A stretch of DNA of 56,632 nucleotides, taken from a virus. The notes under the pieces were generated by a model, which was not told the origin of the DNA, did no database searches, and saw only the letters and a program-made list of their open reading frames with translations. The stretch is from IMG/VR virus record IMGVR_UViG_3300005613_003813, positions 1-56,632 of that record; one strand, written 5' to 3'. Every line of letters starts with the position of its first letter. Position 1 is the stretch's first letter. Position numbers and translations under genes: made by a program. Below, one piece after another: positions 14,700 to 32,421 of this stretch.

Positions 14700-15755
14700 T
14701 TATGTCAACCTTTCCAAAAACGCCTCAATCTCCTTCTGCTCTTTATCAAAGTTTACCACACTCCTGAACCTATCATAGGCATTCCGGCACACCTCTCTAT
14801 GAAGCTCCGGCTCAGCAAACCTTCTAATTCGCTTGATATTTTCCTTCAAACTTCGCCCGTCCATATCAATACAGGTCTTCCCATCTTCCATTAACTGACC
14901 GGCTAATTTGTCCCGATATTGACTAGACCGGATTATTGGCGGGCGACCAACGGCAAACCAGTTATGGATAATGTGACCAAACCCATCGCCCCCCGCCTTC
15001 AAATGAAAACCGAAGGCACTTTTCTGCATCTTCTTAGCCACATTCTCCCACCCATTAACCGGACCATCGTCGCACGCCGTCCCGAAACTCTTGAACTCAA
15101 ACTCCGGCAGGGCTTTCTTCAACTTTTTGTATATCTCATAATCCTCGGGGCGCTTCGAAAGCAGGTGAACAAAGCTATAAACCCCCTTACCATCCACAGA
15201 GGGCACATATTTAAAAGTGTCAAGGTCGAACTCTTGGTGGTAGAACACCACATTGACCCCTTTTGGCACCTCAACGGGCAAAGTGCTAGACATAATGTTT
15301 TTGGCTAATTTAAAATCAATTGGACCAAAGTCGTTCCCAATCTGGTAGATCAGTTTAGCAGTTGGTTGATACTCCTTGATAAGCCTGGTGTACGGCTCGA
15401 GGTGCTGGGGAATTGAGGCGATGATAATGTCAAACTTTGTACTCTTAAACTGCTCTAGGGTTACGGCTTTCTGATCTTTCCCAGGAGCTTTGATCGACCA
15501 GTAACCATCCTTGACGGCCTTTACCTCATTCAGTGGGGGGCTACCATCCTCCGGCATATACGTCTCACCCCGTATCCCTAGAAACTGGGTGACCGTCCCC
15601 GGATAATTTCCATAGGGCTCCGCGACCTTCCAATAGCCCCGGTCGAACCACTCTTCTCCAATCGGGCGGTACAGCTCCCACCCCAACCGCTTCTCAAACA
15701 GAAGCTGGAGCGAGTAGTACAGGGCGTTGTGGTGCAGATCGCTAAAGATCTTCAC
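14700..15755 (-). CDS. GT-B-type glycosyltransferase-like protein
   Basis: The product is 351 residues with a GTG start at 15755 whose GTGA overlaps the stop of the epimerase. The N-terminus KIFSDLHHNALYYSLQLL is typical of a phage and bacterial GT-B group. The C-terminal half holds FGFHLKAGGDGFGHIIHNWFAVGRPPII, the likely donor-binding region with its acidic residue and Gly-rich loop. It is the last enzyme of the 14.7-23.4 kb glycan operon. Donor unknown. Confidence 0.7.
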   Translation of the reverse strand: MKIFSDLHHNALYYSLQLLFEKRLGWELYRPIGEEWFDRGYWKVAEPYGNYPGTVTQFLGIRGETYMPEDGSPPLNEVKAVKDGYWSIKAPGKDQKAVTLEQFKSTKFDIIIASIPQHLEPYTRLIKEYQPTAKLIYQIGNDFGPIDFKLAKNIMSSTLPVEVPKGVNVVFYHQEFDLDTFKYVPSVDGKGVYSFVHLLSKRPEDYEIYKKLKKALPEFEFKSFGTACDDGPVNGWENVAKKMQKSAFGFHLKAGGDGFGHIIHNWFAVGRPPIIRSSQYRDKLAGQLMEDGKTCIDMDGRSLKENIKRIRRFAEPELHREVCRNAYDRFRSVVNFDKEQKEIEAFLERLT

Positions 15756-16528
15756 AGCACCGACTTCCCCACATACCCAATCAGCCGTTGGGCCTTCTTA
15801 ACCGAAAACAACGGTTCCGTTGAAGACTCCAGGCGCACTTCCGCATCCGGATGCACCTTTTTTAACCAAGCAATCGTATCCGGACAATACTTATTCGTTG
15901 TTGGGTCGCCAATGTTAAACACATCTGAGGGACCCTCGTACTCCGCCAACTTCTGCATAAACTCAATGAAGTTCTCCCTCGATACATGGGCAAAGAAGTG
16001 GGTCGGATCCAGCGGGGCCCCCGTCTCGAGCGCAATCGGGCCCTCCAGTCGGAAACAATATGCCTTAATGTCCTTCTGCCCCAGCAGATAGTCCTCGCAG
16101 GCCAACTTCGTCTTGCCGTAGACGGTAAGAAACTTATCAGGCGAACGGGGATAGTCCTCATCTATTGGGTAATACCCAAGATTAAAGGGCCTCCCCCCAA
16201 GTTCGATTCCGTAGGCCGCCCCCGAAGAAGAGAAAAGTATCTTCTTCACTCCAGCCAACCGCATACAACCAACAACGTGTACCAGCCCCCCAAGATTTAA
16301 CCTCATAAAATCTACATCAGATACGCCCTCAATTGGTCGCGGGTAAGCGGCAAGGTGGACAACCACATCCTTGCCCCGCATCCTTTCGACCAGCCGCGCG
16401 GTATCCCAAATGTCATCCTCGGTTGGCGCAAAAAAGTCATCAACCACATCGTAGGCATCAGACTCAAATGCTGGTCGGATTATTTTTCCCATCGCCCCAG
16501 CTCCGCCGGTAATTAGTGCTTTAACCAT
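15752..16528 (-). CDS. NAD-dependent sugar epimerase/dehydratase (extended SDR)
   Basis: The product is 258 residues. The nucleotide-binding Rossmann motif is LITGGAGAMGK. DVVVHLAAYP and ILFSSSGAAYG give the active-site Ser/Thr region, and YGKTKLACE has the catalytic Tyr-x3-Lys. This is the UDP-glucose 4-epimerase type and is a little shorter than typical (about 310-340). It may act on a UDP-pentose or hexose. It overlaps both neighbours, so it is co-translated with the UDP-arabinopyranose mutase-like gene. Confidence 0.85.
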   Translation of the reverse strand: MVKALITGGAGAMGKIIRPAFESDAYDVVDDFFAPTEDDIWDTARLVERMRGKDVVVHLAAYPRPIEGVSDVDFMRLNLGGLVHVVGCMRLAGVKKILFSSSGAAYGIELGGRPFNLGYYPIDEDYPRSPDKFLTVYGKTKLACEDYLLGQKDIKAYCFRLEGPIALETGAPLDPTHFFAHVSRENFIEFMQKLAEYEGPSDVFNIGDPTTNKYCPDTIAWLKKVHPDAEVRLESSTEPLFSVKKAQRLIGYVGKSVL

Positions 16529-18423
16529 TTCTTAATTAACACCTCCCATCGCTCCCTCTGTTTCTTGTACAACTCAAAGTAGGGATCATCCTCTTCCCCT
16601 TTCCAAAAGCCCTCGTTGAGACCGATCCCCCTGGCCTCCTTGACCAAGTTTTTATAGACATTGCTAGCACGCTCGTGCTTAACCGAAGCATAGCCGGTAA
16701 CGACCGCCCATCCTTTTTGGTCGATAATTCGTTTACTGACTATCCCCAACCAAATATCGGCGAACCTGTCCAGCCCTACTTTCTTTCCCATTGGCGCCCA
16801 ATACATATAAGGTAGCATCTTCCGCTTGAACGCCACGTTCATTCCGCAGTTGTGCACAACGAATCCCTCTGCCAAATAGGTACTATCAGTATCCACAGTT
16901 AAATCGTAAACATCTCCGGTATACTCGATCTTCTCAACACTACCCACCCCCACCTCCACGAAATCGGGGACACTTTTGTAAATGTGACTAGTTTTCTTCT
17001 TTTGTTGCTCCCACTCCATTTTACTATCCAAAATCTCCTTAGCAAAACTGGCGGCGTTCTCTCCATACAAAGTAACCTTGTACTGGGGATATTTTCTATT
17101 CCGCGCAGAATACTCTGTCAACCCACAATAAAAACCCAAACCAGTTACTAACAGTCGCACCTGTTCTGCCAACCCCTTACTAATCGTATGATAGCTTACA
17201 ATAGGGCGGCCCCTATTACTGCCAATATACCCATCCCCATCAAAAAGCCCCTGTAAAAGTTTTTGGATATTTCTACTACGCAAAACCTCCTCGGGAATAG
17301 TTTTCCCCCAAGCGTACTCTCCAACAAGTTCGTAAAAATACTTTGCTATCTCAACTCCGTATATTTCGTACCTAACACTATTTCCTACTACATACTTCGC
17401 AGGAACCTTGTTGTACTTTCCTCTGAAATAATCCTCTACTCTCCTACCAAATGTATCTTGCTCATTTGCCGCCAAACTGAAAGTAACACCATTTACCTTA
17501 TGAGAATTGGCCATATTTTTGTTTTTAGAGAAGCTCCCCTCCGCTATAAATAAACCAAGAATGTACATATCCTCATTTGATAAAGGCGACTGCCCACTAA
17601 ATGCAAGTTTGGGCAAGCGCAGACGGTCATCAGGAGATAAATCCCCACAACGCTTCCAACCAGCCGCAGTCAAAAACTCGTGGTCGGGGGTAGAGAACAA
17701 ATCAACCCCGCTACGCAAACTAACTCTCAAATGCTTGCCCTCAGAACTTCTTTTTATTTTCCTAAGCACCCTCCTCGTTTCCCCATTACCCGAGGTAACT
17801 AAATCTCCAACCACAATATCCTCTATCTTCCTCATCTCCCCGTTACCCATAACGACCTCGGTACCTGGAAGAAAACACATCGGGTAGTAGGTCCCCCTAG
17901 GAACGGGACCTCTGTAGAACTCAACATCAGGGTTGCCCTTAACAAGTTGGGTCGGAGCGTCGTAATCAGGAACCCCATACCAAACCCCGTGGGAAAGCAC
18001 CACCTCCGCCTCTTCCCGTATCTCATAGGGAAATCCCCGCATATACTCGTCGGCCGTTGACAACCACCTAATCGGCACATGCTGACGGAGTGCCTTAATG
18101 TGCTGGTCAATCGTATCGAACTTCGGAATGAGATCGTCGTCAAGAGTGATAATATACTCCACATCTGGTAGGTTTTTGGCAACATAAGCAAATCCCAAAT
18201 TCCTCACCCCGTCGTTGAAGTTGTAGATAAGATCGCTATCCATCCCCATTATATCCTCAACCGAGTTGTCAACACCGTTGTAAGTCAGCACAGGTTCTTC
18301 GCCATCCTCAACTACCACGAACGCCACCTCGTGAAGATTAAACAACCTCTGCCATGCCGGAATAAACTTTTCCTCTAGAAGATCGGGTCTAATCGTCGGA
18401 ACCACTACTGCGATGTTCGTCAC
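16513..18423 (-). CDS. GT75/RGP-like UDP-arabinopyranose mutase with in-frame intein
   Basis: The 636-residue precursor starts with GTG 18423 (GGAGGAGAAGAA upstream, stop of previous gene overlapping). Extein residues 1-182 and 526-636 match reversibly glycosylated polypeptides: VVVPTIRPDLL, a DDD metal motif (95-97), FPYEIREEAEVVLSHGVWYG, PDYDAPTQLVKG, PRGTYYPM/CGMNVAF and SNVYKNLVKEARGI. The plant family interconverts UDP-arabinopyranose and UDP-arabinofuranose. The intein lies exactly at the conserved PM/CGMN. The spliced protein would be 293 residues, slightly short for the family. Confidence 0.85.
   Translation of the reverse strand: MTNIAVVVPTIRPDLLEEKFIPAWQRLFNLHEVAFVVVEDGEEPVLTYNGVDNSVEDIMGMDSDLIYNFNDGVRNLGFAYVAKNLPDVEYIITLDDDLIPKFDTIDQHIKALRQHVPIRWLSTADEYMRGFPYEIREEAEVVLSHGVWYGVPDYDAPTQLVKGNPDVEFYRGPVPRGTYYPMCFLPGTEVVMGNGEMRKIEDIVVGDLVTSGNGETRRVLRKIKRSSEGKHLRVSLRSGVDLFSTPDHEFLTAAGWKRCGDLSPDDRLRLPKLAFSGQSPLSNEDMYILGLFIAEGSFSKNKNMANSHKVNGVTFSLAANEQDTFGRRVEDYFRGKYNKVPAKYVVGNSVRYEIYGVEIAKYFYELVGEYAWGKTIPEEVLRSRNIQKLLQGLFDGDGYIGSNRGRPIVSYHTISKGLAEQVRLLVTGLGFYCGLTEYSARNRKYPQYKVTLYGENAASFAKEILDSKMEWEQQKKKTSHIYKSVPDFVEVGVGSVEKIEYTGDVYDLTVDTDSTYLAEGFVVHNCGMNVAFKRKMLPYMYWAPMGKKVGLDRFADIWLGIVSKRIIDQKGWAVVTGYASVKHERASNVYKNLVKEARGIGLNEGFWKGEEDDPYFELYKKQRERWEVLIKKWLKH
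16849..17877 (-). mobile_element. Class 1 intein with LAGLIDADG endonuclease in the RGP-like gene
   Basis: The intein is 343 residues, from Cys1 (CFLPGTEVVMGNG) to GFVVHN, followed by Cys+1. Block B is STPDHEF, and block F/G is YDLTVDTDSTYLAEGFVVHN. Two dodecapeptides, YILGLFIAEGS and LLQGLFDGDG, mark an intact homing endonuclease. All standard splicing residues are present, so canonical splicing is expected. Confidence 0.92.
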
Positions 18424-19175
18424 TTCTTCTCCTCCAATGGAGTAATTTTGTCCTCCTCCCGTTCCCACCACTTCATATCTATTGCCGGATCGCCGAAGGG
18501 CATAAGAAACTTCTCTTGTGTGTGTACCCCACCCCACTTCCTCCGGTAGTAGTCGTCGATGTGGGCCACATTATTTTGATAGTGCCGCATCAGCCGGGGG
18601 TCCTTAGTTACCCCGCCCGCCGTCGGGTGTGAGTGCCGGTTAAGTTCAATCCGTCTCCGCTCTAGTCCCAACAGTCCCATCCGGTAGCCGTGGTCGCAGT
18701 CTTCGTAAGAGTAAGGAACAATGTTTTCATCAAAAAGCCCCATCCTTTCTACACACCGGCGCATTACCGCAAAACAGTGCATATCCGTCTGGTGCTCAAT
18801 ACTCGGTGCCCAGTAGTAGTACCCCGGCTCCTCAGCCTCTGTGTTCTCGACCGCTTTAACCATTTCCTCAACCGACTCGTTGAAGATACAAGAGGGACTA
18901 AGGATTACCACATAATCAAGACCCTCTCGCATAGGTGAATCCCACTTATGATCGCGTCCCGCAAGCGCTATGTTAAAGTAGGCGGCGGCTCCTGGATTGG
19001 TCGGGTCGTGAATATACTCCGCGCCCTCCTTTTCTAATTCCTTAGCAAAAGCATCAACTTCAGGATTATCGAACCCGTTAAAAACAATCAGTTTGGATTT
19101 ATCGGGGATCTGGGCGGCCAACTGCTTGAATTCCTCAACCTGCGCCAAGACCCCTATTGCTATTTTGTAGTTCAT
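18420..19175 (-). CDS. GT2-like glycosyltransferase
   Basis: The product is 251 residues and starts behind GAGGAGGTGGCAAA. The fold cues are IAIGVLAQVEEFKQL at the start, NPGAAAYFNIALAGRDHKWD and YVVILSPSCIFNESV in the donor region. The later MGLFDENIVPYSYEDCDHGYRM resembles the acceptor/ED motif of rhamnosyltransferase-like GT2 enzymes. It is coupled to the RGP-like gene. Donor unknown. Confidence 0.75.
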   Translation of the reverse strand: MNYKIAIGVLAQVEEFKQLAAQIPDKSKLIVFNGFDNPEVDAFAKELEKEGAEYIHDPTNPGAAAYFNIALAGRDHKWDSPMREGLDYVVILSPSCIFNESVEEMVKAVENTEAEEPGYYYWAPSIEHQTDMHCFAVMRRCVERMGLFDENIVPYSYEDCDHGYRMGLLGLERRRIELNRHSHPTAGGVTKDPRLMRHYQNNVAHIDDYYRRKWGGVHTQEKFLMPFGDPAIDMKWWEREEDKITPLEEKK

Positions 19176-19822
19176 TTTGCCACCTCCTCAGTTTTAATCT
19201 TATGTACCCAAATAGTCGTGGCAACCCCAGGCACGCTTAGTGTTGTAAAGTCATTTCCACAAAGCCGATCCACCGCGCAAGTCACATCCGAACGGGCCAA
19301 CTCTCCCTCTGGCCCCTCTCGATTACCGTGATCGTGACCAGAGATGGTTCCCCCCGGCTTAATCTTTTTTGCGTAGTAGTAAATGTCATCGTCAATCACC
19401 GGATAGTTGTGGTTGCCGTCAATAAAACAAAAATCAAACGCCCCATCCGGCAGATACTTACGGATTTCCTGCGAGTTCCCCCTCAAAACAGCTACCGGTA
19501 AACCCCGCACATTTTCCCAGCAAATCTTAAAAAAGTCGGAATCGGAGACTGCCTCAGAGTAATTGTTTGTGTTGTTCGGTTTGTTCTTATACGAGTCTGG
19601 ATCCTCTACCCCCGCAAAGGTATCAATCGTGTAGAGAACCGCCCCCTTTTCTTTACAAACCGTGCCCAAAACATAAGTTGAGCGCCCTTTCCAAGCGCCG
19701 ATCTCAATTGCCCGCCCACCAGAAGGGATACTCTCCCAAGCCAAATCCCAAAGGCAATCCAAGTCGGCCCTAGTCATAAACCCCTGAATCTTTAATGCCT
19801 GTTCAATCGTCTTTTCCTTCAT
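19172..19822 (-). CDS. Class I SAM-dependent methyltransferase
   Basis: The 216-residue product has motif I AIEIGAWKGRST, motif II YTIDTFAG and a D-rich acidic motif FCFIDGNHNYPVIDDD followed by KPGGTISGHDHG. This is the Methyltransf_24 type, often O-methyltransferases acting on sugars. The HDHG may bind metal. It overlaps both neighbours in the operon. Confidence 0.82.
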   Translation of the reverse strand: MKEKTIEQALKIQGFMTRADLDCLWDLAWESIPSGGRAIEIGAWKGRSTYVLGTVCKEKGAVLYTIDTFAGVEDPDSYKNKPNNTNNYSEAVSDSDFFKICWENVRGLPVAVLRGNSQEIRKYLPDGAFDFCFIDGNHNYPVIDDDIYYYAKKIKPGGTISGHDHGNREGPEGELARSDVTCAVDRLCGNDFTTLSVPGVATTIWVHKIKTEEVAK

Positions 19823-20441
19823 AGAACTTAAAATCCTCCTTCCGCGGTCGGTAAAAGCAAGTCAAACCCCGCGGCGTCGCAAAATGGAACGGCCGCAACC
19901 TGTCCTCTTTGACTAACTTGATGATTTCCTTTGGCAGTTTTCCGAACGGCCAACCAAACCCCAACTCCTTGTTCTCTACCTGGCACATCCCCCCACCTAA
20001 ATCGTGAATCATTACTATTCCCCCGTCTTTTAGATTCTTTTCAAACTTTAGAAGCTCCTCAAATCTAATCTGCGGTTCGGTATCTAAAAGGATAATGTCA
20101 TACAGGTGCTGCGCGGCAAACTCCAATGAGTTCTCAATGTAGAACGTAATAAACTTCTCCAACCCCAACTCTGCCCACCTTTCCCTAGCTGTGTTCAAGT
20201 GCTGACCTTCCCACTCAATTGTATCCAAATGCCCAAAATCGTTTTCTTTCAAAGCCGCCGCCATATAGGAAGATGCTATCCCTTGGTGTGTGCCTGTTTC
20301 ACATATCCTTTCTGGTTTCATCATTCTAACCAACCCGTAAAGGAACTCACCCACCTCCAATTCCACACCCCCCGTGTTATTGCACACATATCTAGCGTCC
20401 GTTGGTTCCTGAATCTTACTCAACTTATCTGTAACCCACAT
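19803..20441 (-). CDS. Class I SAM-dependent methyltransferase
   Basis: The 212-residue product has motif I ICETGTHQGIASS, followed by HLDTIEWEGQHLNTA and IILLDTEPQIRFEELL, then GGIVMIHDLGGG. It is related to, but distinct from, the neighbouring methyltransferases. It is likely to decorate a glycan made by this operon. It overlaps the start of the next gene by 20 bases. Confidence 0.8.
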   Translation of the reverse strand: MWVTDKLSKIQEPTDARYVCNNTGGVELEVGEFLYGLVRMMKPERICETGTHQGIASSYMAAALKENDFGHLDTIEWEGQHLNTARERWAELGLEKFITFYIENSLEFAAQHLYDIILLDTEPQIRFEELLKFEKNLKDGGIVMIHDLGGGMCQVENKELGFGWPFGKLPKEIIKLVKEDRLRPFHFATPRGLTCFYRPRKEDFKFYEGKDD

Positions 20442-20444
20442 TAT

Positions 20445-21038
20445 TTATTTCCTCACCCACAACGACTGCTGCCCGTCGTATAAAAGATGCCAACCCTTCT
20501 TGAAAAGAAACTCCTTTGCCAGCCTGGTCTTTCCCCCACCGGGAAGATCGTTATCATCCAAAAGAACCACCGCCTTGGGGGCTAGATTTGGATACGCCAG
20601 CTTCAACTCCCTCAACTGGTGTTCCTGACAAGGCCCGACCGGCCCCTCCTCTGGTGTCAACGGGTAGTCCATCGTGTCCAGGTAAAGAAGATCAATCCTC
20701 TCGTCGAGCCCCTTTAGAAACTCCAGCGAGTCCATTTCAATGTGAGTAATACTACCCGCCCACGACTCCGTAATTATTTTACAGGCCTCAATGTGCGGCG
20801 GGTAGTTGTCAACAGTATAAATCTTACCCCCGTATTTGCCAACTACCTCAGCAAAGAGAAGGGTTCCCATCCCCGCTCCCCAATCATCCGGAGCCTTGGT
20901 CGTCCCCAGCTCAACGATCGTGTGCCCATGTCGCTGAAGAAACAGATTCAAGGCCAGCTTAAAGGTTACATACCGCCCGCCGGACTTCTCCTTATACTTT
21001 TCCTCAAACCAACCCCCGACCTGTAAGAAATCTTTCAT
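20445..21038 (-). CDS. Class I SAM-dependent methyltransferase
   Basis: The 197-residue product has TIVELGTTKAPDDWGAGMG as motif I, then KIYTVDNYPPHIEACK, LDLLYLDTMDYPLTPEEG-like catalytic region and KAVVLLDDNDLPGGGK. The last stretch resembles metal-dependent O-methyltransferases. It is third of three consecutive methyltransferases. Confidence 0.8.
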   Translation of the reverse strand: MKDFLQVGGWFEEKYKEKSGGRYVTFKLALNLFLQRHGHTIVELGTTKAPDDWGAGMGTLLFAEVVGKYGGKIYTVDNYPPHIEACKIITESWAGSITHIEMDSLEFLKGLDERIDLLYLDTMDYPLTPEEGPVGPCQEHQLRELKLAYPNLAPKAVVLLDDNDLPGGGKTRLAKEFLFKKGWHLLYDGQQSLWVRK

Positions 21039-21042
21039 AACT

Positions 21043-22032
21043 TTACAAACCTTCTAAGAATTCAGCCCACTGTTTTTTAATCCCCGCCTTCCCAAAAACC
21101 TCAATCGCTTTTTCCCGACCGGCGTCGCCGATCTTCCTGGCCAGCGCGCCGTCCTCTAAGAGCACCCCGACATACTTCTGTAACTCCTCAATCGTCTCCC
21201 CAACAAACCCCGTCACCCCGTTCTCAATCAACTCCGGCACCTCATAGGTATCTTGGTCAGGAAACTCCCGATAGAAACTCTTACCCAACGCTACTATAGG
21301 TATCCCTGTCATCCACGCCTCCATAAAATTCAAAACGTACGAGGCGGGTTGCGTGCCCGTAAAAAAGTATACCCGACTAGCCCTCAGCTCCTTTTTCAAG
21401 TCCTCAAAGCTCAGCTGTCCCCCAATAAGCCCACTTGCCTCGTTCCCTGGACCAAACAGCCGCCGCTCAAAAGGTCTGGTTGCTTCCTCAAAAGCCCCGA
21501 AGTTCAGGGATGTTCCCCGCTGTTTCATTGACTGCGCTATCGTTATCACCCGCTTCTCTATCCCGTTCCAGTCTTTGAACTCATTGGGGTCTTTATAAAA
21601 TCTAATTATTGCGTCGCCACCTACATACCCCGGAATAGTCTCCTCTTTAGGAGAGTAGCGAACAATCTTCAAACCGTCGTCACGGAAATTCTGCAAAGCC
21701 ACCTCCGTCGTCTCGTTTGACTGCCCTATGCTCCGCCAAACAACCGGTTTCTTTTTCAACCTTTCCCAATTGTTACCGGTCAGCCCGCCCGAAGTTGCCG
21801 GGGTTGCCCCTAGCCAGGGTTGGGGGTGGTCAATTACTTGAACCCTAGAATTGTGCATCATTACAACTATGTCTGCCCAATCCACCAACTGCGGGTGGAT
21901 ATTTTCTTTGGAACACTGGAGATAGATGGCGTGTAAATCGGGATGAACCCTTGCCCCCTTAATTGCCGGCCTGGTTATCCCCGCGTGGGCCGGGTTGCTG
22001 TACGCGCCCATAGAGTAAACGTCGTACCCCAT
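21043..22032 (-). CDS. GT4-family glycosyltransferase, N-terminus separated by an amber codon
   Basis: The product is 329 residues from ATG 22032, with a poor SD. GT-B features include a C-terminal domain with YFFTGTQPASYVLNFMEAWMTGIPIVALG and ENGVTGFVGETIEEL, the usual nucleotide-sugar site. Upstream in the same frame, GTG 22107 lies behind a near-perfect GAAGGAGGTGGTGAGCAC and encodes RKILYLSCH-stop-HEILEHDEVSLFAE, the expected first strand and helix. A single TAG at 22075-22077 interrupts it. The gene is therefore truncated, read through or affected by an error. Confidence 0.75.
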   Translation of the reverse strand: MGYDVYSMGAYSNPAHAGITRPAIKGARVHPDLHAIYLQCSKENIHPQLVDWADIVVMMHNSRVQVIDHPQPWLGATPATSGGLTGNNWERLKKKPVVWRSIGQSNETTEVALQNFRDDGLKIVRYSPKEETIPGYVGGDAIIRFYKDPNEFKDWNGIEKRVITIAQSMKQRGTSLNFGAFEEATRPFERRLFGPGNEASGLIGGQLSFEDLKKELRASRVYFFTGTQPASYVLNFMEAWMTGIPIVALGKSFYREFPDQDTYEVPELIENGVTGFVGETIEELQKYVGVLLEDGALARKIGDAGREKAIEVFGKAGIKKQWAEFLEGL

Positions 22033-22103
22033 CTCTGCAAAGAGAGAGACCTCGTCGTGCTCCAGAATTTCGTGCTAATGGCACGAGAGGTAAAGTATTT
22101 TCC

Positions 22104-22246
22104 TCACGTGCTCACCACCTCCTTCGTAGTCTTACGACTAGCCTCCTCAGAGGACTTTACAAACCTAGTAAGAAACTTGTTCCAACCTTTCCATCCATAA
22201 CTATCTGTTCCTCGATGACATACTTTACAATAGGAAATGTTTTCAT
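22104..22246 (-). pseudogene. Possible frameshifted small zinc-ribbon gene
   Basis: Between the two GT4 genes one frame reads NISYCKVCHRGTDSYGWKGW and continues to KTTKEVVST at 22104. It lacks a start codon, but one extra A in the AAAA run after ATG 22244-22246 would give MKNISYCKVCHRG in frame. It has one CxxC pair. The evidence is composition only. Confidence 0.3.
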
Positions 22247-23406
22247 TTCGGCCACTTCAGTCCTTTCTTCCGTTCAATATTAATCTGTTTCTGAATATCC
22301 CGCAACCGGTCCTTCATGTACCGCCCCACCTGCTCAAAAGAAAAGTTTTGGTGAACAAAACTACAGCCCCGCGCCCCGATCTCCTTTGCCTCCTTCTGAT
22401 TCTCGAAAACCCAACGCATCTTCTTCCTCAACTCCCCAACCGACGGATTCGCCCACATCTGCTCAGTCCCGTACCACGGCGCAAACTCCATCCCGAAAAC
22501 ATTAACCAGGTCCGGAGTCAGGGGAAGGTAGCACTCCTTAGTAAACCAATCGTGGACGCCACCATAATTAGTAGCAATCACGGGCTTACCAAAACCCGAG
22601 GCCTCTACCATCGGAATACCCCAACCCTCACCACGGTGCGGCAACACAAAACAATCCCCCGTCTGGTGAATTCGGAAAACATCCTTCTTATCTAGCAACC
22701 CCACGTGGACAAAAATATCCGCGGGGTTCTTATTAGCCGCGCTGTTCTTCCACTCCCAAATCTTAGCCACAATATCCTGCATCTCCCCCGATGTAAAGTG
22801 CTCCCGGTAGGTTTTAAGCAAAAGCCCCACATTCTCATCAGACGAAAACTCCTCTAAGAACGCTTTAACCAGCGCTTCGGGGTTCTTCCTTTGGATCCAT
22901 TGAAAGATAGAATAAAAAAGGTAGCCGTTAAAGCCACCACGGAGCTTGAAGTTGTTATATCTTTTATTAAACATTTCGGTATCAATTGGTTCGGGGAAGA
23001 TATAGATCGGTCTGGTCACGCCCGATTTCAAAAAGGCCTGTTTGTTGTGCTCGCTCCCTGTCCAAATCTCATCCATTAGGTTACAGTTCCAAACCCAGAG
23101 CGGAGACATCCTATCCGTTTCCCAAAACAGGTGGCCGATGTGGTACTTACAGGGCTCCATATACTTCATGTAACCATCACAGGGAACGTGAACAATTCTA
23201 ATATCGTAGGGAATATCTCGCCCCTCAAGCTCCCTAACGAGCTTGTAAGCGTCACCAAAGTAGTTAGTATCATTATTACTGTAGGAGACAATCTCGGTTA
23301 CTACATCGACCCCTGCCGCGTTCAGGGCGCAAACAAAGTTACGGTTGGCTTCCCCATACCCACTAGGATCTACAAGGGGACCAACATATTTACAAGCCGC
23401 CCTCAT
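22243..23406 (-). CDS. GT4-family glycosyltransferase
   Basis: The 387-residue product has the full GT-B layout: CKYVGPLVDPSGYGEANRNF acceptor-side start, HLFWETDRMSPLWVWNCNLMDEIWTGSEHN, then FNGYLFYSIFQWIQRKNPEALVKAF. The donor site is FVLPHRGEGWGIPMVEASGFGKPVIATNYGG with the conserved EGWGIPxxEA. It starts by ATGA overlap with the preceding gene. This is a mannosyltransferase-like GT4; the donor is not certain. Confidence 0.88.
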   Translation of the reverse strand: MRAACKYVGPLVDPSGYGEANRNFVCALNAAGVDVVTEIVSYSNNDTNYFGDAYKLVRELEGRDIPYDIRIVHVPCDGYMKYMEPCKYHIGHLFWETDRMSPLWVWNCNLMDEIWTGSEHNKQAFLKSGVTRPIYIFPEPIDTEMFNKRYNNFKLRGGFNGYLFYSIFQWIQRKNPEALVKAFLEEFSSDENVGLLLKTYREHFTSGEMQDIVAKIWEWKNSAANKNPADIFVHVGLLDKKDVFRIHQTGDCFVLPHRGEGWGIPMVEASGFGKPVIATNYGGVHDWFTKECYLPLTPDLVNVFGMEFAPWYGTEQMWANPSVGELRKKMRWVFENQKEAKEIGARGCSFVHQNFSFEQVGRYMKDRLRDIQKQINIERKKGLKWPK

Positions 23407-24251: not shown

Positions 24252-24806
24252 TCATTGTTTTTCCTCAACCCTAACCTCTATTACCCCCCTACTTGTTGGT
24301 GCCAACTCTTCAAACGCCCCCCGCGATAAATCGATCACTCTTCCTAGTTTTTCGAACGCCCCCGTATCCGTCACCACAATATCCACACACCTTCCCGTGT
24401 CCACAGCGCAAACGCGAAGCCGATCCCCACAGCCGTGGCGAAGAGAAGCAGCAGTAAACTCATCAGGATTAAAAACATCCCCACACGCAGTAGTCCGTCC
24501 AGCAAACGCCTCCCCGTACCAGCTTGCCGCCCCTGTATATGATGTTTCGCTATATAATCCAGCTGCATCAGGTCGTAATGGTTTAAATTGTTCGGCTTTG
24601 ATTTTGAAAATAGTGATTGTATTCGCATAGTTTACTCCTCGAGAAGTGTTAGCAGTAGCAACACAAAGATTACCCCAAGTGGTACAAGTATTACTAACGT
24701 AAGAATGTCCATAACCAATTACCGCCCTTCTCCGTAGGACTACAACTGCCAAAAATATCAAGCCCAACGCCCAGATGATTAAGGTCAACCGCCTCGAGCC
24801 AAGCAT
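24252..24806 (-). CDS. RlpA-like double-psi beta-barrel protein with membrane anchor
   Basis: The product is 184 residues. A basic N-terminus and a membrane helix (LTLIIWALGLIFLAVVVL) place the rest outside the membrane. From about residue 92, AASWYGEAFAGRTTACGDVF, then FTAASLRHGCGDRLRVCAVD, CVDIVVTDTGAF and GRVIDLSRGAFEEL match the RlpA barrel, including the acidic residue expected in catalysis. Known members cut naked glycan strands of peptidoglycan. Several Cys pairs are unusual. A structured RNA precedes the ATG, and an overlapping membrane frame lies inside the gene. Confidence 0.82.
   Translation of the reverse strand: MLGSRRLTLIIWALGLIFLAVVVLRRRAVIGYGHSYVSNTCTTWGNLCVATANTSRGVNYANTITIFKIKAEQFKPLRPDAAGLYSETSYTGAASWYGEAFAGRTTACGDVFNPDEFTAASLRHGCGDRLRVCAVDTGRCVDIVVTDTGAFEKLGRVIDLSRGAFEELAPTSRGVIEVRVEEKQ
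24371..24628 (-). CDS. Overlapping membrane protein inside the RlpA-like gene, holin-like candidate
   Basis: The frame is 85 residues, read in a different frame from the RlpA gene. Its ATG 24628 follows GAGGAG at a spacing of 6 bases, an ideal site. Residues of about 49-76 (VGMFLILMSLLLLLFATAVG...) form one strong membrane helix preceded by basic residues. Phage holin and spanin genes are often nested this way. It could still be a shadow frame. The SD is the best argument for translation. Confidence 0.5.
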   Translation of the reverse strand: MRIQSLFSKSKPNNLNHYDLMQLDYIAKHHIQGRQAGTGRRLLDGLLRVGMFLILMSLLLLLFATAVGIGFAFALWTREGVWILW

Positions 24807-24809
24807 AAA

Positions 24810-24922
24810 CTCTGCAAAGCGTGCAGATTAGGTAGGGTAAGTCAAAAAGTGACTTAGAGGTACCAGAAAGGAGGTGAACCCCAAAGGGTACCTACCCTAC
24901 CAAACCTACGCGCTTTGCAGAG
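24810..24922 (-). ncRNA. Structured leader RNA candidate before the RlpA-like gene
   Basis: Nested perfect stems: CTCTGCAAAGCG/CGCTTTGCAGAG (24810-24821 with 24911-24922), GGTAGGGTA/TACCCTACC (24831-24839 with 24893-24901), and inside them two hairpins, AAGTCA/TGACTT and GGTACC/GGTACC. The loop of the last carries, on the minus strand, TCACCTCCTTTCT, equal to the 3-prime end of 16S rRNA (plus strand AGAAAGGAGGTGA). The outer stem ends 3 bases before ATG 24806 and buries its weak SD. Confidence 0.65.
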
Positions 24923-24925
24923 GAT

Positions 24926-24974
24926 GCTAGAGGAGGCATTGACCACACTGCCCCCGTGGTCAACTTCCTCTAGC
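24926..24974 (-). terminator. Long hairpin after the E1-like gene
   Basis: GCTAGAGGA pairs with TCCTCTAGC and, inside, TTGACCAC with GTGGTCAA around a 9-base loop, 17 bp in all with a small asymmetric bulge. There is no T tract. It lies between the end of the ubiquitin-like operon and the structured leader of the RlpA-like gene, possibly as an RNA-processing or pausing site. Confidence 0.55.
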
Positions 24975-24982
24975 AACCCCTA

Positions 24983-25627
24983 CTAATCGGTATGTATTAT
25001 TAAATTGTAAAGGTCCGCCGTAATCACCGGATAAAGTTTATCACCTTTGGCAAACTTCTTCACCTGGTTAGCGATCAGCCCCCCAATGACTGCCGTATTG
25101 TAGACCACGCTCCGTTCGGTACAAGGACCGTTTTCCACATCCGCCGGAGGGACCAACGTCGTAAGAAACTGACTCGGACTTTTTACCGTATAAATCTCGA
25201 TCTGTTCTCCCCCCATCCGACCGTCAATCAGAAGTTTCCAAAATCCTCCAGATAACCCCGCCTTCCCCAATTCCCATCGTACGGCCATCGAATCTACTGC
25301 CAAAATCACAATTCCTCCCAGTGGCTCCGATGAGTAGTGCCGCGGCACCGCAATAATATCCACCCCAGCAAATTTCTTAATGTGCCCGGCCAACGCCTCG
25401 GCCTTATTCCTCCCTACGTCTTCTTCCGCGTAGAATTGGGAGGGTAGATTGTGCCCCTCAACTTTGTCCCCGTCAAAGACGGTAATGGCTCGGCAGCCGA
25501 TTTTACTAAGGTATAAGGCGGCCCAAGATCCGATTCCTCCAACTCCAATGATGGTGATTGGTTCGAGGAGCGCTTCGGGTAGGACGATGCTTTCTTGTCT
25601 TTTGAACTTTTCTTCTTCTTTCCCCAT
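24983..25627 (-). CDS. E1-like activating enzyme (ThiF/MoeB/HesA family)
   Basis: The 214-residue product would adenylate the C-terminal Gly of the small modifier. It has ITIIGVGGIGSW (ATP-binding loop, residues 25-35), AITVFDGDKVEGHNL with the acidic and Asn residues that hold ATP and Mg, GRNKAEAL, ILAVDSM, and GPCTERSVVY with Cys169 as candidate thiol. ATG 25627 has a GGAGGTGA site 13 bases away, rather far. The first 71 codons overlap the JAB frame, and G_GGA_AAG at 25618-25624 offers -1 frameshifting into a JAB-E1 fusion. Confidence 0.85.
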   Translation of the reverse strand: MGKEEEKFKRQESIVLPEALLEPITIIGVGGIGSWAALYLSKIGCRAITVFDGDKVEGHNLPSQFYAEEDVGRNKAEALAGHIKKFAGVDIIAVPRHYSSEPLGGIVILAVDSMAVRWELGKAGLSGGFWKLLIDGRMGGEQIEIYTVKSPSQFLTTLVPPADVENGPCTERSVVYNTAVIGGLIANQVKKFAKGDKLYPVITADLYNLIIHTD

Positions 25628-26136
25628 CCGAATCGGAACTTCACCTCCTTTACCTTCTCTTTCATCTCAGCATCACACCACTCCAAAATTGCGTCGTTCT
25701 CCGATGAGTAAAGCCAAGGTAACTTATCAAAGGTCAACCGAGAGGGCTCAAAAACATCTACACGACAGAGCAGGTCTATCTCGTCACCGCCCTTAGAAGC
25801 TACAATAGAAAGAACCCACGGCATATTCATCTCTTCAATAGTTGTATCGTCGGTCAGACTCCAAAAAGCGTTCATATTCCCGTGAGAGTGCCACCAAATG
25901 TTCCAATCGGCTGGGTTCTCGCCCTTCTCAATTAAGTCTTGAAGAAAGTCGCTAACCGCATCTTCCTCAATGATCGTCGAAGCCGACGAAACCCGCTGCT
26001 CAAGGACAATAATATCCTTCACGAAAATACTCTCGCCGGTGACTTCTGTCCGACCAAAGCCGCTAACCTCTCCCGTCGCCAGGCTTACAAAGTATTTAAT
26101 TTTTAAGAACGCCTCGTTTGTAAAATGAATTTTCAT
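25414..26136 (-). CDS. JAB/MPN (JAMM) metalloprotease
   Basis: The product is 240 residues from ATG 26136. The JAMM motif is complete: Glu23 (GEVSGFGRT), His83-x-His85 (WWHSHGNM), seven residues, Ser93 and Asp96 (WSLTDD). Such enzymes remove or trim ubiquitin-like modifiers; here the modifier ends in GGR, so trimming the Arg is a natural task. The domain ends near residue 170. The last 67 residues overlap the E1 gene in another frame and look like non-selected sequence. Confidence 0.88.
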   Translation of the reverse strand: MKIHFTNEAFLKIKYFVSLATGEVSGFGRTEVTGESIFVKDIIVLEQRVSSASTIIEEDAVSDFLQDLIEKGENPADWNIWWHSHGNMNAFWSLTDDTTIEEMNMPWVLSIVASKGGDEIDLLCRVDVFEPSRLTFDKLPWLYSSENDAILEWCDAEMKEKVKEVKFRFGWGKKKKSSKDKKASSYPKRSSNQSPSLELEESDLGPPYTLVKSAAEPLPSLTGTKLRGTIYPPNSTRKKT

Positions 26137-26138
26137 TA

Positions 26139-26774
26139 TTACCCAGTCATCATATTTGCATTTGCCCCTTCGGTCCACGTGGTCCCCACCGTTTGCCAAT
26201 TTTGCGCATAAGAGAGCCCCTCTGGGGAACGCCCCGGCCCCGTTCTAGCACTAGGAACCGTAAGAATCTCCCCGTCACCTATCCAAAACCCAGACAGTTC
26301 GAGAGACTCCGAAACCTCTGGAACCTCATCAGCCCCCCTCAGAGCTCTCTTTTTCCGACCTGTAATCAGATCCTCCCTCTCATCTCCAGAGAGTGGGTCC
26401 GTGTGCGCTTCCCACTTATAGGGGTGTATCCGGGGGTCCTCCTCACTCCAAGTCTCCAAGTACTCAAAGGCTGTATCGACCAAAAGGGAAAGATTACCCT
26501 CCCGGTACAATCTCTCAATGACTCTCCCAAAGTCCCCCCAACAAGCCTGACCATGTTCCTGCGTAACACAGGGGTGGCTGTAACCGCCGCGGCGACCGTG
26601 CGCCACCTGGGTAAGGTTAAAAAACCTAATCTCTTGGCAACTGGAATTCGGGATCTCTACCAAAAAGCGACCCAAGGTAATCCGACTTCTCCCGTCGGCC
26701 ATCTCTAATTCTTTTGTAAAAAGTGCTAATGTGTTACCCCAGACCTCAACTTTCTCAAGCGGATACTCCTTCAA
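26139..26774 (-). CDS. E2-like conjugating enzyme candidate
   Basis: The frame has 211 codons from a TTG at 26774, which has no proper SD. The core HPCVTQEHGQACWG (residues 67-80) has the E2 arrangement HPxV...GxxC, with Cys78 as candidate catalytic residue. RRGGYSHP before it and LSLLVDTAFEYLETW after it fit the E2 beta-flap and helix order. Just upstream, an A14 run joins this frame to the coiled-coil frame by a -1 shift, so the natural protein may be a fusion of about 310 residues. It sits between Ubl and JAB genes. Confidence 0.7.
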   Translation of the reverse strand: MKEYPLEKVEVWGNTLALFTKELEMADGRSRITLGRFLVEIPNSSCQEIRFFNLTQVAHGRRGGYSHPCVTQEHGQACWGDFGRVIERLYREGNLSLLVDTAFEYLETWSEEDPRIHPYKWEAHTDPLSGDEREDLITGRKKRALRGADEVPEVSESLELSGFWIGDGEILTVPSARTGPGRSPEGLSYAQNWQTVGTTWTEGANANMMTG

Positions 26775-27073
26775 CTCCTGAACAAACTCCTTAACCCTTG
26801 CCTCGACGTACTTTTTTTTTTTTTTCTCTGCTCCTTCAATTCGGCGACGCCCTTATCTATCTCCTCCAAACGCTTCTTTTCCGCTTTTAACTTATCTTCG
26901 TAGACCTTTACCTGCCGCCTCGAGGACTCCACGTAAGACTTTGCCGATTCCAAGTCCTTCTCAGCCACATCTACACGATGCGCCTGTTTGTTCTTTTTTC
27001 CTTCGGCCACTGCTAACTCCTTGTTAAGGAATTTCCGGTAGTAGCCTACTAATTTCTCAAAAGTTATTTTCAT
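26771..27073 (-). CDS. Coiled-coil protein, probably N-terminal part of the E2-like protein
   Basis: The 100-residue frame begins at ATG 27073 behind AGGGGGGAG (13-base spacing). Residues of about 15-85 form a strongly charged coiled coil (VAEKDLESAKSYVESSRRQV, KLKAEKKRLEEIDKG). The frame then enters a run of 14 A (plus-strand T run 26812-26825) and ends 14 codons after it. AAGGAG lies 5 bases before the run. A -1 slip leads into the E2-like frame with KYVEARVKEFVQELKEYP, an uninterrupted helix. Confidence 0.7.
   Translation of the reverse strand: MKITFEKLVGYYRKFLNKELAVAEGKKNKQAHRVDVAEKDLESAKSYVESSRRQVKVYEDKLKAEKKRLEEIDKGVAELKEQRKKKKSTSRQGLRSLFRS
26812..26825 (-). promoter_or_regulatory. A14 slippery run with upstream SD, frameshift or slippage site
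   Basis: Fourteen consecutive A on the coding (minus) strand, followed by G, give the dnaX-type heptamer A_AAA_AAG. AAGGAGCAGAG directly precedes it, like the stimulatory internal SD of dnaX. A -1 ribosomal shift or addition of one A by polymerase slippage fuses the coiled-coil and E2-like frames. Confidence 0.6.
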
Positions 27074-27113
27074 CGGTATAGTAGTCTCCCCCCTTTAGTG
27101 TTCCCCTCCTTTT

Positions 27114-27332
27114 CTAGCGTCCACCCTCCTTGCGTCCGGTAACAGTAATCAAATCCCCATCTTTAAGATCTACATCCTCAAAATCTCTGCGAACCTTTTT
27201 CCTGTTCACCCGAACGACATCGCTTCGCGTGGAACTCATCCCCGCTAAATCCAATGCGTCCTCCAAGGAGAACTCGTCATCGACCGTGTACTCTTTGGTT
27301 TGGGCACCCAACCTACCAATCTTTATCTGCAC
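27114..27332 (-). CDS. Ubiquitin-like beta-grasp modifier ending in GGR
   Basis: This is a 72-residue protein, the size of ubiquitin. GTG 27332 is chosen because GAAGGGGGTGAAAAAG precedes it. It starts with a strand (QIKIGRLGAQTKEYTV), then FSLEDALDLAGM helix, DVVRVNRKKV strand and DLKDGDLITVTG, the beta-grasp pattern of ThiS, MoaD and bacterial ubiquitin-like proteins. It ends KEGGR, so a JAB protease could expose the di-glycine. It is the first gene of the E2-JAB-E1 operon. Confidence 0.85.
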   Translation of the reverse strand: MQIKIGRLGAQTKEYTVDDEFSLEDALDLAGMSSTRSDVVRVNRKKVRRDFEDVDLKDGDLITVTGRKEGGR

Positions 27333-28007: not shown

Positions 28008-28601
28008 CTATGCCGGAACTTTAACTTCTTCCGGTTCAACATCCTCACCACCCGACGGTACACTCTTGTCCTCCGGCTCTGGGGCCTTTGGAGCCGCCGG
28101 CGGGTTAACCTTTTCTCGCTCCAGCCGGCGCTCTTCTATTCCTTCGATAAGGTCCTTGGCAAACTGCTTCTCGCCGTCGTCTAACTTCTTGGCATCGGCG
28201 CCCGCGTCCTTAACCTTAACAATGTTGGCCCAAATCCTACCCTTAGAATCAGTCTTGTGGGAAACCTTACCCTTGAAGAACCCCCCAACCAAGTCATTGA
28301 TATTAAAGGGCTCAACGTCCTCAAGAATCTCCTTGGTGACGGCACAAGCAAGATCGTACAAATGGGACGAGCTCCCACCCTCAAACCCTGCGGTGTAGGC
28401 GCGACTAATCCGACGAGTAATAAGTTTTCCCCGTTGGGCATCGTCAAGAACGATACAGTAAACACGAAGGAAATCCCTTACCCCATACGCGGTCTCCACG
28501 TCGATCAATTCGTCAATATCAACAATCTCGAAGTTATAGAGGCCCTCTGGCAACGCCTCTGGCGGTTCGTTTTTTATCGAAGCTCTATCATCAGTCAGCA
28601 A
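28008..28601 (-). CDS. Probable single-stranded DNA-binding protein
   Basis: The product is about 197 residues. A TTG start at 28601 is inferred because GGGGGTGAAGAAA precedes it. The N-terminal 130 residues (LPEGLYNFEIVDIDELIDVE, GVRDFLRVYCIVLDDAQRGKL, VGGFFKGKVSHKTDSKGRIW) look like the OB-fold proteins that serve as phage SSB or gp2.5 analogues. The C-terminus is Pro/Glu-rich and acidic, as in SSBs. It is one of the very few replication-type genes here. Confidence 0.55.
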   Translation of the reverse strand: MLTDDRASIKNEPPEALPEGLYNFEIVDIDELIDVETAYGVRDFLRVYCIVLDDAQRGKLITRRISRAYTAGFEGGSSSHLYDLACAVTKEILEDVEPFNINDLVGGFFKGKVSHKTDSKGRIWANIVKVKDAGADAKKLDDGEKQFAKDLIEGIEERRLEREKVNPPAAPKAPEPEDKSVPSGGEDVEPEEVKVPA

Positions 28602-29244
28602 TTTCTTCACCCCCTTCCCGTAAAATATCTCTATAATTAGTAGTTGCCGCACGTTTTCCGGAATTACAACTACGGCACAACGGCTGTATATTATCAATAT
28701 AATCCGAACCACCCATACTCAAAGGAACGATATGGTCCTCTGTTAACCTAATTTCCGGTTCAAACCTTTTACAACAGAGACACATATACCCAAAACTCTC
28801 TTTCAGATCTTCCCACTCTTCAAAAGTGTGGCTACCAACAGCCCCCCTTTTACTTGCTCTATACCTCTGATTTCTAAACAACTTCTTTTCTCTTTGCGAT
28901 ATCCCCTTAGGATAACTACGAACCCTCTGCCCCCGCTTCTCCACACCTAGCTTTGATGCCCCAACTCTTTGCTCCCGACCCTCCGAGGAATTAGCCCACC
29001 TACGCAACTTTTCTTTAGTTTCCTCGGAATGTTTATTACCAATGTGCGCAATACTTAAATTTCTTTTGTGCTCGTCGCTAAACTTACTCCCCACCAAAAC
29101 AACACTCATAGCCAAACCTATGTTCCGTTTATGCTCATCCGAAAACTCTTTTCCCGACCAATAACATACCGGGTTTCTCAGGCGGGCACGCCGCATCTTA
29201 ACTTTAGTTTCCTCTGTATGTTTATAACCTGCTCTTCTTCCCAT
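28591..29244 (-). CDS. HNH homing endonuclease with NUMOD3 repeats
   Basis: The product is 217 residues. The N-terminus repeats the NUMOD3 pattern (GYKHTEETKVKMRRA, EFSDEHKRNIGLAMS, KFSDEHKRNLSIAHIG, KHSEETKEKLRRW), which binds the DNA target. The C-terminus is an HNH nuclease with CLCCKRF, TEDHIVPLSMGGSD, NIQPLCRSCNSGK. It overlaps the start of the SSB-like gene and is a selfish insertion. Confidence 0.88.
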   Translation of the reverse strand: MGRRAGYKHTEETKVKMRRARLRNPVCYWSGKEFSDEHKRNIGLAMSVVLVGSKFSDEHKRNLSIAHIGNKHSEETKEKLRRWANSSEGREQRVGASKLGVEKRGQRVRSYPKGISQREKKLFRNQRYRASKRGAVGSHTFEEWEDLKESFGYMCLCCKRFEPEIRLTEDHIVPLSMGGSDYIDNIQPLCRSCNSGKRAATTNYRDILREGGEEIAD

Positions 29245-31854: not shown

Positions 31855-32421
31855 TCACTTAAACCTCCCAACGCGATCTCTTTCCCTATCCCTGTCGTGA
31901 ATTGCGGCATGTTCTGATGGAGAAATAATCCTCAGGTTCTCAACAGAGTTGTTTTGCCTATCCCCGTCTATGTGGTGGATATGCTCATCCTCTCTTAAAA
32001 TCCTGCCCGAATGTTTCTCCATAACTGCCCTGTGCTCATAGATATAATGGCCAGCAACAGGACGAGGATGCCCTGGGTCTAATACCAAAACATATCCTCT
32101 TTCATTAACATACCTTCCTTCCCCCGTCGGTTTTCCGGCTCGGAACTCGGATTGACACTTGCGAGAACAGAAATTATTTTTCCTGCCCCGCAGCTTGTTC
32201 CACTTAACCACCGAAGGATAGACCTTGTATGTCTTCCCGCAATTATCACAAGTTAAAGTGCGCTTTCCCTTGCGTTGGGATTTTGACTTGCAATCAACCG
32301 AACAATACTTGGCGTCCTTATGGTATGCCCGGAACTCTTTGCCACATATAGGGCACACATATTTAATCTTATCGCCAAGCCATCTCGGATGGTTTTCGCC
32401 AGTTAGATATTCTCTGCTCAT
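31855..32421 (-). CDS. HNH homing endonuclease with zinc ribbons
   Basis: The product is 188 residues. Two zinc-ribbon units (CPICGKEF...YCSVDCK and CDNCGKTY...FCSRKCQSEF) are followed by a nuclease of the HHxDGDRxNNxxENL type (EHIHHIDGDRQNNSVENLRI, HAAIHDRDRE). It has its own promoter at 32430-32458 with ATG only 8 bases after the -10. Free-standing selfish element. Confidence 0.88.
   Translation of the reverse strand: MSREYLTGENHPRWLGDKIKYVCPICGKEFRAYHKDAKYCSVDCKSKSQRKGKRTLTCDNCGKTYKVYPSVVKWNKLRGRKNNFCSRKCQSEFRAGKPTGEGRYVNERGYVLVLDPGHPRPVAGHYIYEHRAVMEKHSGRILREDEHIHHIDGDRQNNSVENLRIISPSEHAAIHDRDRERDRVGRFK

Follow-up and report, generated by a model that had tools for sequence, protein, structure and literature searches.

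A predicted ubiquitin-like conjugation cassette in a phage genome, with relatives in other phages and in CPR bacteria

Conjugation of ubiquitin-like (Ubl) proteins is known as a weapon of bacteria against phages. In the Bil operon (BilABCD), as in the gene set described here, a Ubl, an E2, a JAB/JAMM protease and an E1 are encoded by four neighboring genes, and the C-terminus of the Ubl is processed by a protease, as we propose also for the phage set (PMC11354881). The Bil E2, BilB, carries the CEHH motif, i.e. Cys followed by Glu at +6, His at +8 and His at +13 (PMC11354881). In the bacterial operon described as type 6d by Iyer et al. (2006), a Ubl, a JAB protein, an E1 and an E2 are combined with an α-helical protein (PMC1779556). 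The PRTRC plasmid cassette (ParB-related, ThiF-related) resembles the present set in bringing together a ThiF-type E1, a JAB protein and a small Ubl on a mobile element. Among phages, a Ubl-like domain likewise accompanies a JAB domain in the lambdoid TAPI/TAPK proteins (PMC1779556).

The window analyzed here, a virus record of 56,632 bases taken as a whole, contains terminase, portal and major capsid genes, and its capsid protein is closest to those of podovirus-type cyanophages (~30% identity). On the minus strand at 24983–27332, between genes of the same orientation, lies a cassette with the order Ubl, coiled coil, E2-like protein, JAB, E1; the five adjacent minus-strand frames reported in an earlier note on this DNA were all found where that note had placed them. 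Its features are:

27114–27332, minus strand: pro-form of a putative Ubl modifier, 72 aa ending in KEGGR; GTG start
26771–27073, minus strand: N-terminal, coiled-coil segment of the E2 protein, 100 aa; frame A, with a Lys-rich end at the A-run
26812–26825, minus strand: homopolymer of 14 A (plus strand: T14) that breaks the frame of the E2 gene
26139–26774, minus strand: E2-like (UBC) domain; frame B, HPCVTQEHGQACWG, candidate Cys78; TTG start assumed
25414–26136, minus strand: JAB/JAMM metalloprotease, 240 aa; ATG at 26136, last 70 aa overlapping the E1
24983–25627, minus strand: minimal E1 (ThiF-type adenylyltransferase), 214 aa; GVGGIGS, candidate Cys169
24917–24983, minus strand: strong hairpin immediately 3' of the E1 stop; -43.8 kcal/mol, z = -6.9

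The hairpin, whose stability was equalled in 0 of 200 shuffles, is likely to mark the end of the operon transcript. The JAB and E1 frames share ~210 nt (25414–25627, minus strand), where the Rossmann start of the E1 overlies, in the other frame, the low-complexity tail of the JAB protein. The cassette lies away from the terminase, portal and capsid genes of the window, and an HTH protein and HNH nucleases are encoded in its neighborhood. Two HNH endonucleases (28591–29244 and 31855–32421, minus strand), one of them with a NUMOD3 motif, are possible homing elements. Directly past the cassette (24252–24806, minus strand) we found an RlpA/DPBB-type lytic transglycosylase-like protein (DPBB_1, 1.3e-15). 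A cluster of genes for sugar and DNA modification (14700–23406, minus strand), with an epimerase, several glycosyltransferases and two methyltransferases, possibly serves glycosylation of the DNA or the capsid; at 16513–18537 on the same strand a gene similar to those for reversibly glycosylated polypeptides/UDP-arabinomutases is split by an intein that contains a LAGLIDADG endonuclease (Pfam matches: RGP 3.7e-31, Intein_splicing 7.6e-14, LAGLIDADG_3 2e-14).

Compared with Bil, the cassette is phage-borne and its proteins have different architectures. BilA consists of two tandem Ubl domains, whereas the phage Ubl is a single domain of 72 aa, with tandem forms only in related loci such as L002 and L027; the BilD E1 joins an inactive and an active adenylation domain to a helical Cys domain of ~80 aa, whereas the phage E1 is a single domain of 214 aa; and the phage E2 exhibits R84, I86 and R91 at the CEHH spacings after C78 and, unlike BilB, His-Pro ahead of the Cys. 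Membership in Bil was rejected, as neither the tandem BilA, nor the two-domain E1 with its Cys domain, nor CEHH is present in the cassette. Membership in PRTRC was also rejected, as the scores fall far below the curated cut-offs (PRTRC_ThiF: 39.5 bits vs 144.75, PRTRC_A: 17.3 vs 101.8) and the partner genes are missing: no further PRTRC model matched any of the four cassette proteins, and a scan of these proteins and their neighbors, covering the small genes in part, gave no ParB match of note. The PRTRC E2 also differs from that of the phage. The earlier note's statement that Bil and PRTRC use the same set thus holds for the kinds of parts, but not for family membership, the defining features tested being absent.

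The stand-alone Ubl, JAB, E1 and E2 are shared by the phage set and type 6d (PMC1779556). However, the 6d E2 lacks the His before the Cys and has a downstream His (PMC1779556), while in the phage E2 HP is followed by C; moreover, the additional α-helical enzyme of 6d was not seen in the phage set, and the phage E2 carries a coiled coil. TAPI and TAPK are tail assembly genes without E1 or E2 (PMC1779556), unlike the set in the window, which is removed from the structural genes. A tail-assembly Ubl of the lambda type was considered and rejected. Two archaeal systems provide the nearest solved relatives of individual components: sampylation (SAMP2, UbaA, JAMM1), with SAMP2 for the phage Ubl and JAMM1 close to the JAB protein, and the Caldiarchaeum Ub-E1-E2-Rpn11 system, with Rpn11 for the phage JAB. 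The Caldiarchaeum system has an E2 and an E3 of the eukaryotic kind, and to our knowledge neither archaeal system is phage-borne. SAMP conjugation, unlike the phage set, operates without an E2 (PMC11354881). We class the phage cassette as a phage-carried variant of the Ubl conjugation operons of bacteria.

Judged by its sequence, the E1 is beyond doubt a ThiF protein (ThiF, E=2.9e-21, above cut-off), with a single ThiF domain at residues 24–196; ThiF proteins are also its best models, and no rhodanese domain was found on it. It exhibits the features typical of ThiF/E1 enzymes, i.e. the GxGGxGS motif, the Arg finger, the Asp/Lys/Asp residues for adenylation and the acceptor Cys. R10, G28, G30, S34, D52, D54, N60, K75, D112, R117 and C169 are 100% conserved in 76 aligned rows, so that both the GxGxxGS pattern of GVGGIGS and Cys169, named in the earlier note for the E1-like enzyme, recur throughout the relatives. 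In a quick E1 tree the window groups with the viral cassettes L008 and L010–L013 (support 86, branch not starred), and the sequences from CPR bacteria fall inside the wider viral spread.

The Ubl of the window alone gave no significant single-sequence match, and Pfam, PHROGs and PADLOC assigned it to no family above cut-off. The profile of its family (26 sequences), on the other hand, places it nearest to archaeal SAMP2, a protein modifier (5lda_B, E=1.2e-10), followed by PF1061 (E=2.9e-10), with TtuB, ThiS and MoaD also among the matches. Fold prediction for 27114–27332, which had been named beforehand as a test of the proposal, yielded a beta-grasp: the AlphaFold2 model (pLDDT 85.7) has the order β-β-α-β-β-β, and Foldseek searches with it retrieved ubiquitin, SUMO, ThiS and SAMP1 (TM 0.54–0.77 by query length). 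The protein thus combines both hallmarks of the SAMP/ThiS/ubiquitin group, the beta-grasp fold and the C-terminal GG, and the beta-grasp modifier of 72 residues ending in GGR proposed from the sequence is borne out by profile, model and structure search alike. In many relatives the C-terminus consists of GG followed by one or two residues (R, K, L, EK), which fits the expectation for a precursor processed by a protease. Tandem Ubl units occur in two distinct relatives; L002 encodes a precursor of 136 aa (L002:8882–9292) with units ending in GGG and GGR, which resembles poly-ubiquitin or an ISG15-type modifier.

The JAB protein alone matched Prok-JAB with E=4.9e-4, under the family cut-off. In comparisons of the family profile its nearest relative is Rpn11 of Caldiarchaeum (6.5e-9), followed by human PSMD14 (1e-7) and JAMM1 (3e-4), which places it close to deubiquitinases. 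It carries the signature Glu ... HxH(x10)D with Ser that marks the JAB/JAMM deubiquitinase superfamily; these positions (Glu, both His of HxH, Ser, Asp) show 100% conservation in the distinct relatives, and the numbering proposed earlier (Glu23, His83, His85, Ser93, Asp96) is correct given the ATG start at 26136.

The identity of the E2-like protein as an E2 is probable. The motif HPCVTQEHGQACWG exhibits HP and then G-x-C, the order seen in eukaryotic E2s, in agreement with the feature of the E2/UBC superfamily, HP(x) ahead of the catalytic Cys. Neither Cys78 nor Gly80 varies among 21 aligned viral sequences (the window and 20 relatives), and Pro68 is nearly invariant, most relatives having HPH[VI]...C[WLF]G. 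The profile of the viral relatives retrieved almost solely E2 enzymes from the PDB (best E=0.018); with the homologs from CPR bacteria added, the top nine hits were UBE2L3 or apparent variants of it (E=0.0046), the alignment spanning the E2 domain and the phage HP...C falling on the catalytic HPN...C. These hits were weakened by a smaller alignment and improved by the CPR sequences. The similarity to known E2s is weak: Pfam, including its E2 models, PHROGs and PADLOC revealed no family, and hhalign comparisons with Prok-E2_A and Prok-E2_B aligned the Cys, but the probability of these profile-profile matches was only 5–23%. For the downstream frame, the predicted structure includes a core of sheet, Cys and helices (residues 1–113) that is well predicted, and it lacks the first helix. 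Foldseek with this partial model, which includes 98 low-confidence C-terminal residues, found no E2 at E <= 0.001, and because the structure search gave no confirmation we grade the assignment only as probable.

A tblastn-confirmed scan of IMG/VR with the E2 gave no matches, as the E2s are just ~20–25% identical, and the E1 served as bait for relatives in its place. E1 relatives were found in 83 annotated phage records out of 50,697, including those of cultured Flavobacterium phages such as FpV4 and of the crAss-like phage cr128_1. In both FpV4 and cr128_1 the JAB gene precedes the E1 gene, a protein of ~420–435 aa with HSH...C[IL]G is encoded upstream, and genes for uracil-DNA glycosylase, a resolvase-like nuclease, exonuclease or primase lie near the block. 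In IMG/VR the E1 matched at least 415 stretches, of which 80 were kept. With E2 and Ubl called by HMM, JAB is present in 69 of 75 distinct viral loci (one of them that of the window), Ubl in 27 and E2 in 22; the four parts occur together in 16 of the 75, often arranged as in the window (Ubl-E2-JAB-E1), so the same gene set, sought in other phages as the earlier note had advised, is indeed there. Where JAB is accompanied by no HMM-detected E2, 22 of the 42 listed upstream proteins have HSH...C[LIF]G. The conserved catalytic residues and the gene linkage repeated across viral loci led us to reject the possibility that the frames are open by chance. In literature searches no description of an E1-E2-JAB-Ubl set encoded by a phage came to light, which is not proof of absence, and single members of the set may already be known to specialists.

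A single-protein E1 scan of GTDB genomes returned no matches; a search with the E1 alignment found a cassette in Collierbacteria, and a survey of its phylum then added four. Altogether, strong E1 matches (E 1e-43 to 1e-66) occur in 5 of 380 CPR/Patescibacteria-type genomes; E2 and Ubl genes adjoin the E1 gene in all five, and JAB in four. The cassettes L126, L128 and L129, with the composition Ubl-E1-E2(-JAB), look chromosomal, and the surroundings are plainly so for at least two: L126 is flanked by genes whose sequences we read as EF-Ts and phosphoglycerate kinase/enolase, and L129 adjoins what are presumably GroEL/GroES, TrpRS and TsaD-like genes. The Collierbacteria cassette encodes a second E2-like protein (L085:4124–5143), with Tyr replacing the Cys (HPHPFADQKGNVYLGP), possibly an inactive, UEV-like partner of the active E2. 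A literature search for a ubiquitin-like system in CPR bacteria found none. The capsid protein of the window has matches in 4 of the 380 genomes, at an identity (23–34%) hardly above that to phages of other hosts.

The proximity of the four families, each with its catalytic residues preserved, argues for a conjugation pathway, and the combination of invariant residues, homology, conserved linkage and the beta-grasp model makes a phage Ubl conjugation cassette well supported; we consider it quite probable that the cassette encodes a pathway for both conjugation and deconjugation of a Ubl. We infer the following scheme. The JAB protease would trim the last residue of the pro-modifier, converting GGR to GG; the E1 would adenylate the terminal Gly of the Ubl and then carry the Ubl on Cys169; the Ubl would be handed to Cys78 of the E2, which would join it to lysines of the target, and the JAB protease could reverse the tagging by removing the Ubl. 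The coiled coil of the E2 is probably a dimerization or target-binding arm that may substitute for an E3. In the window as well as in the crAss-like and Flavobacterium phages the cassette is situated among genes of the early/replication type, which favors an intracellular target over the virion; the target would most likely be a protein of the host or of the phage that acts within the cell at an early stage of infection.

The same setting, together with the recurrence in crAss-like phages and the lack of the features that define Bil, makes it unlikely that the cassette is a phage-borne defense, which would tag the proteins of superinfecting phages as Bil does and shield the infected cell or lysogen from competitors, even though the Bil operon comprises the same four functions (PMC11354881) and chromosomal copies of the cassette exist in CPR genomes. 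We regard as rather more doubtful a role in counter-defense, with the phage Ubl, E2 or JAB protein acting as a decoy or deconjugase against Bil, Bub or the CBASS Cap2 of the host: Ubl-based defenses do target phages and the JAB protein is close to deubiquitinases, but a decoy would not require a complete set of conjugation components in which every catalytic residue is retained.

The note that drew attention to the locus called the set apparently intact, which is not established, because the frame change at A14 interrupts the E2 domain and divides it between two frames. In every relative with a recognized E2 the coiled coil and the E2 form a single ORF of ~260–650 aa, and in the relatives' proteins that were read the coiled coil comes first; in the window A14 separates the two halves, which have different reading frames, and +1 or -2 nt would join them. 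Of the coiled coil joined to an E2-like protein, as it had been described, the invariant Cys78 and the single gene in relatives therefore stand, while in the window itself the frames are out of register. Helix 1 of the E2 (YVEARVKEFVQELKEYPLEKV), which aligns with the relatives, is encoded in part by the segment that leads from the A-run to the assumed TTG at 26774, so the downstream ORF alone is not the whole E2. Simulating the window 200 times with a Markov model never produced a run of 14 (longest simulated run: 13), no run above 8 occurs in the E2 genes of the relatives, and no near-identical contig was found for comparison of the run. Possible origins of A14 are an error in the assembled length, transcriptional slippage or a real lesion. 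With the last, the cassette of this phage would be decaying, its E2 inactivated and only the Ubl, JAB and E1 left, a reading that we judge quite improbable: it would agree with the frames being out of register where relatives have one ORF, and with helix 1 lying partly outside the downstream ORF, but both frames are open over the homologous length, the Cys and its motif are kept, the other parts are intact, and a metagenome-assembly length error in the run or transcriptional slippage explains the break equally. On our preferred reading of a functional pathway, the full E2 would be made despite A14, by slippage or because the assembled run length is wrong.

A sulfur-carrier module, in which the ThiS/SAMP2-like protein would be thiocarboxylated via the ThiF-like E1 and donate sulfur for tRNA thiolation or cofactor synthesis with no tagging, would suit a minimal E1 of ThiF size with ThiF proteins as best models and a Ubl profile that also matches TtuB, ThiS and MoaD, but it is very improbable in view of the linked E2 with its invariant Cys (an E2 is not needed for sulfur transfer), the Rpn11-type JAB, the residues beyond GG that suggest a protease-processed modifier, and the lack of a rhodanese domain on the E1 and of a sulfurtransferase among the window genes scanned.

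The proposed conjugation pathway may have a wider reach. We give even odds to the reading that a complete Ubl pathway (a processed modifier, a minimal E1, an HP-Cys E2 with its own coiled coil and an Rpn11-like protease) is encoded by many tailed phages, gut crAss-like phages among them, and tags host or phage proteins during infection, with the related cassettes in CPR chromosomes suggesting exchange between phage and host and an E2 lineage distinct from those of Bil and CBASS. As the set recurs in many phages and a few CPR bacteria, viruses of bacteria seem to run protein tagging of their own; the presence of a complete phage-borne set in several kinds of phages, cultured ones among them, would mean, if the reading is true, that tagging of proteins is practiced by these viruses too. 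With four genes, and with relatives in cultured Flavobacterium phages and in crAss-like phages, the system is small and testable, and may serve for finding the tagged proteins. The origin of eukaryote-like ubiquitin cascades is a further question on which the minimal E1, and an E2 that has HP ahead of its Cys, may bear.
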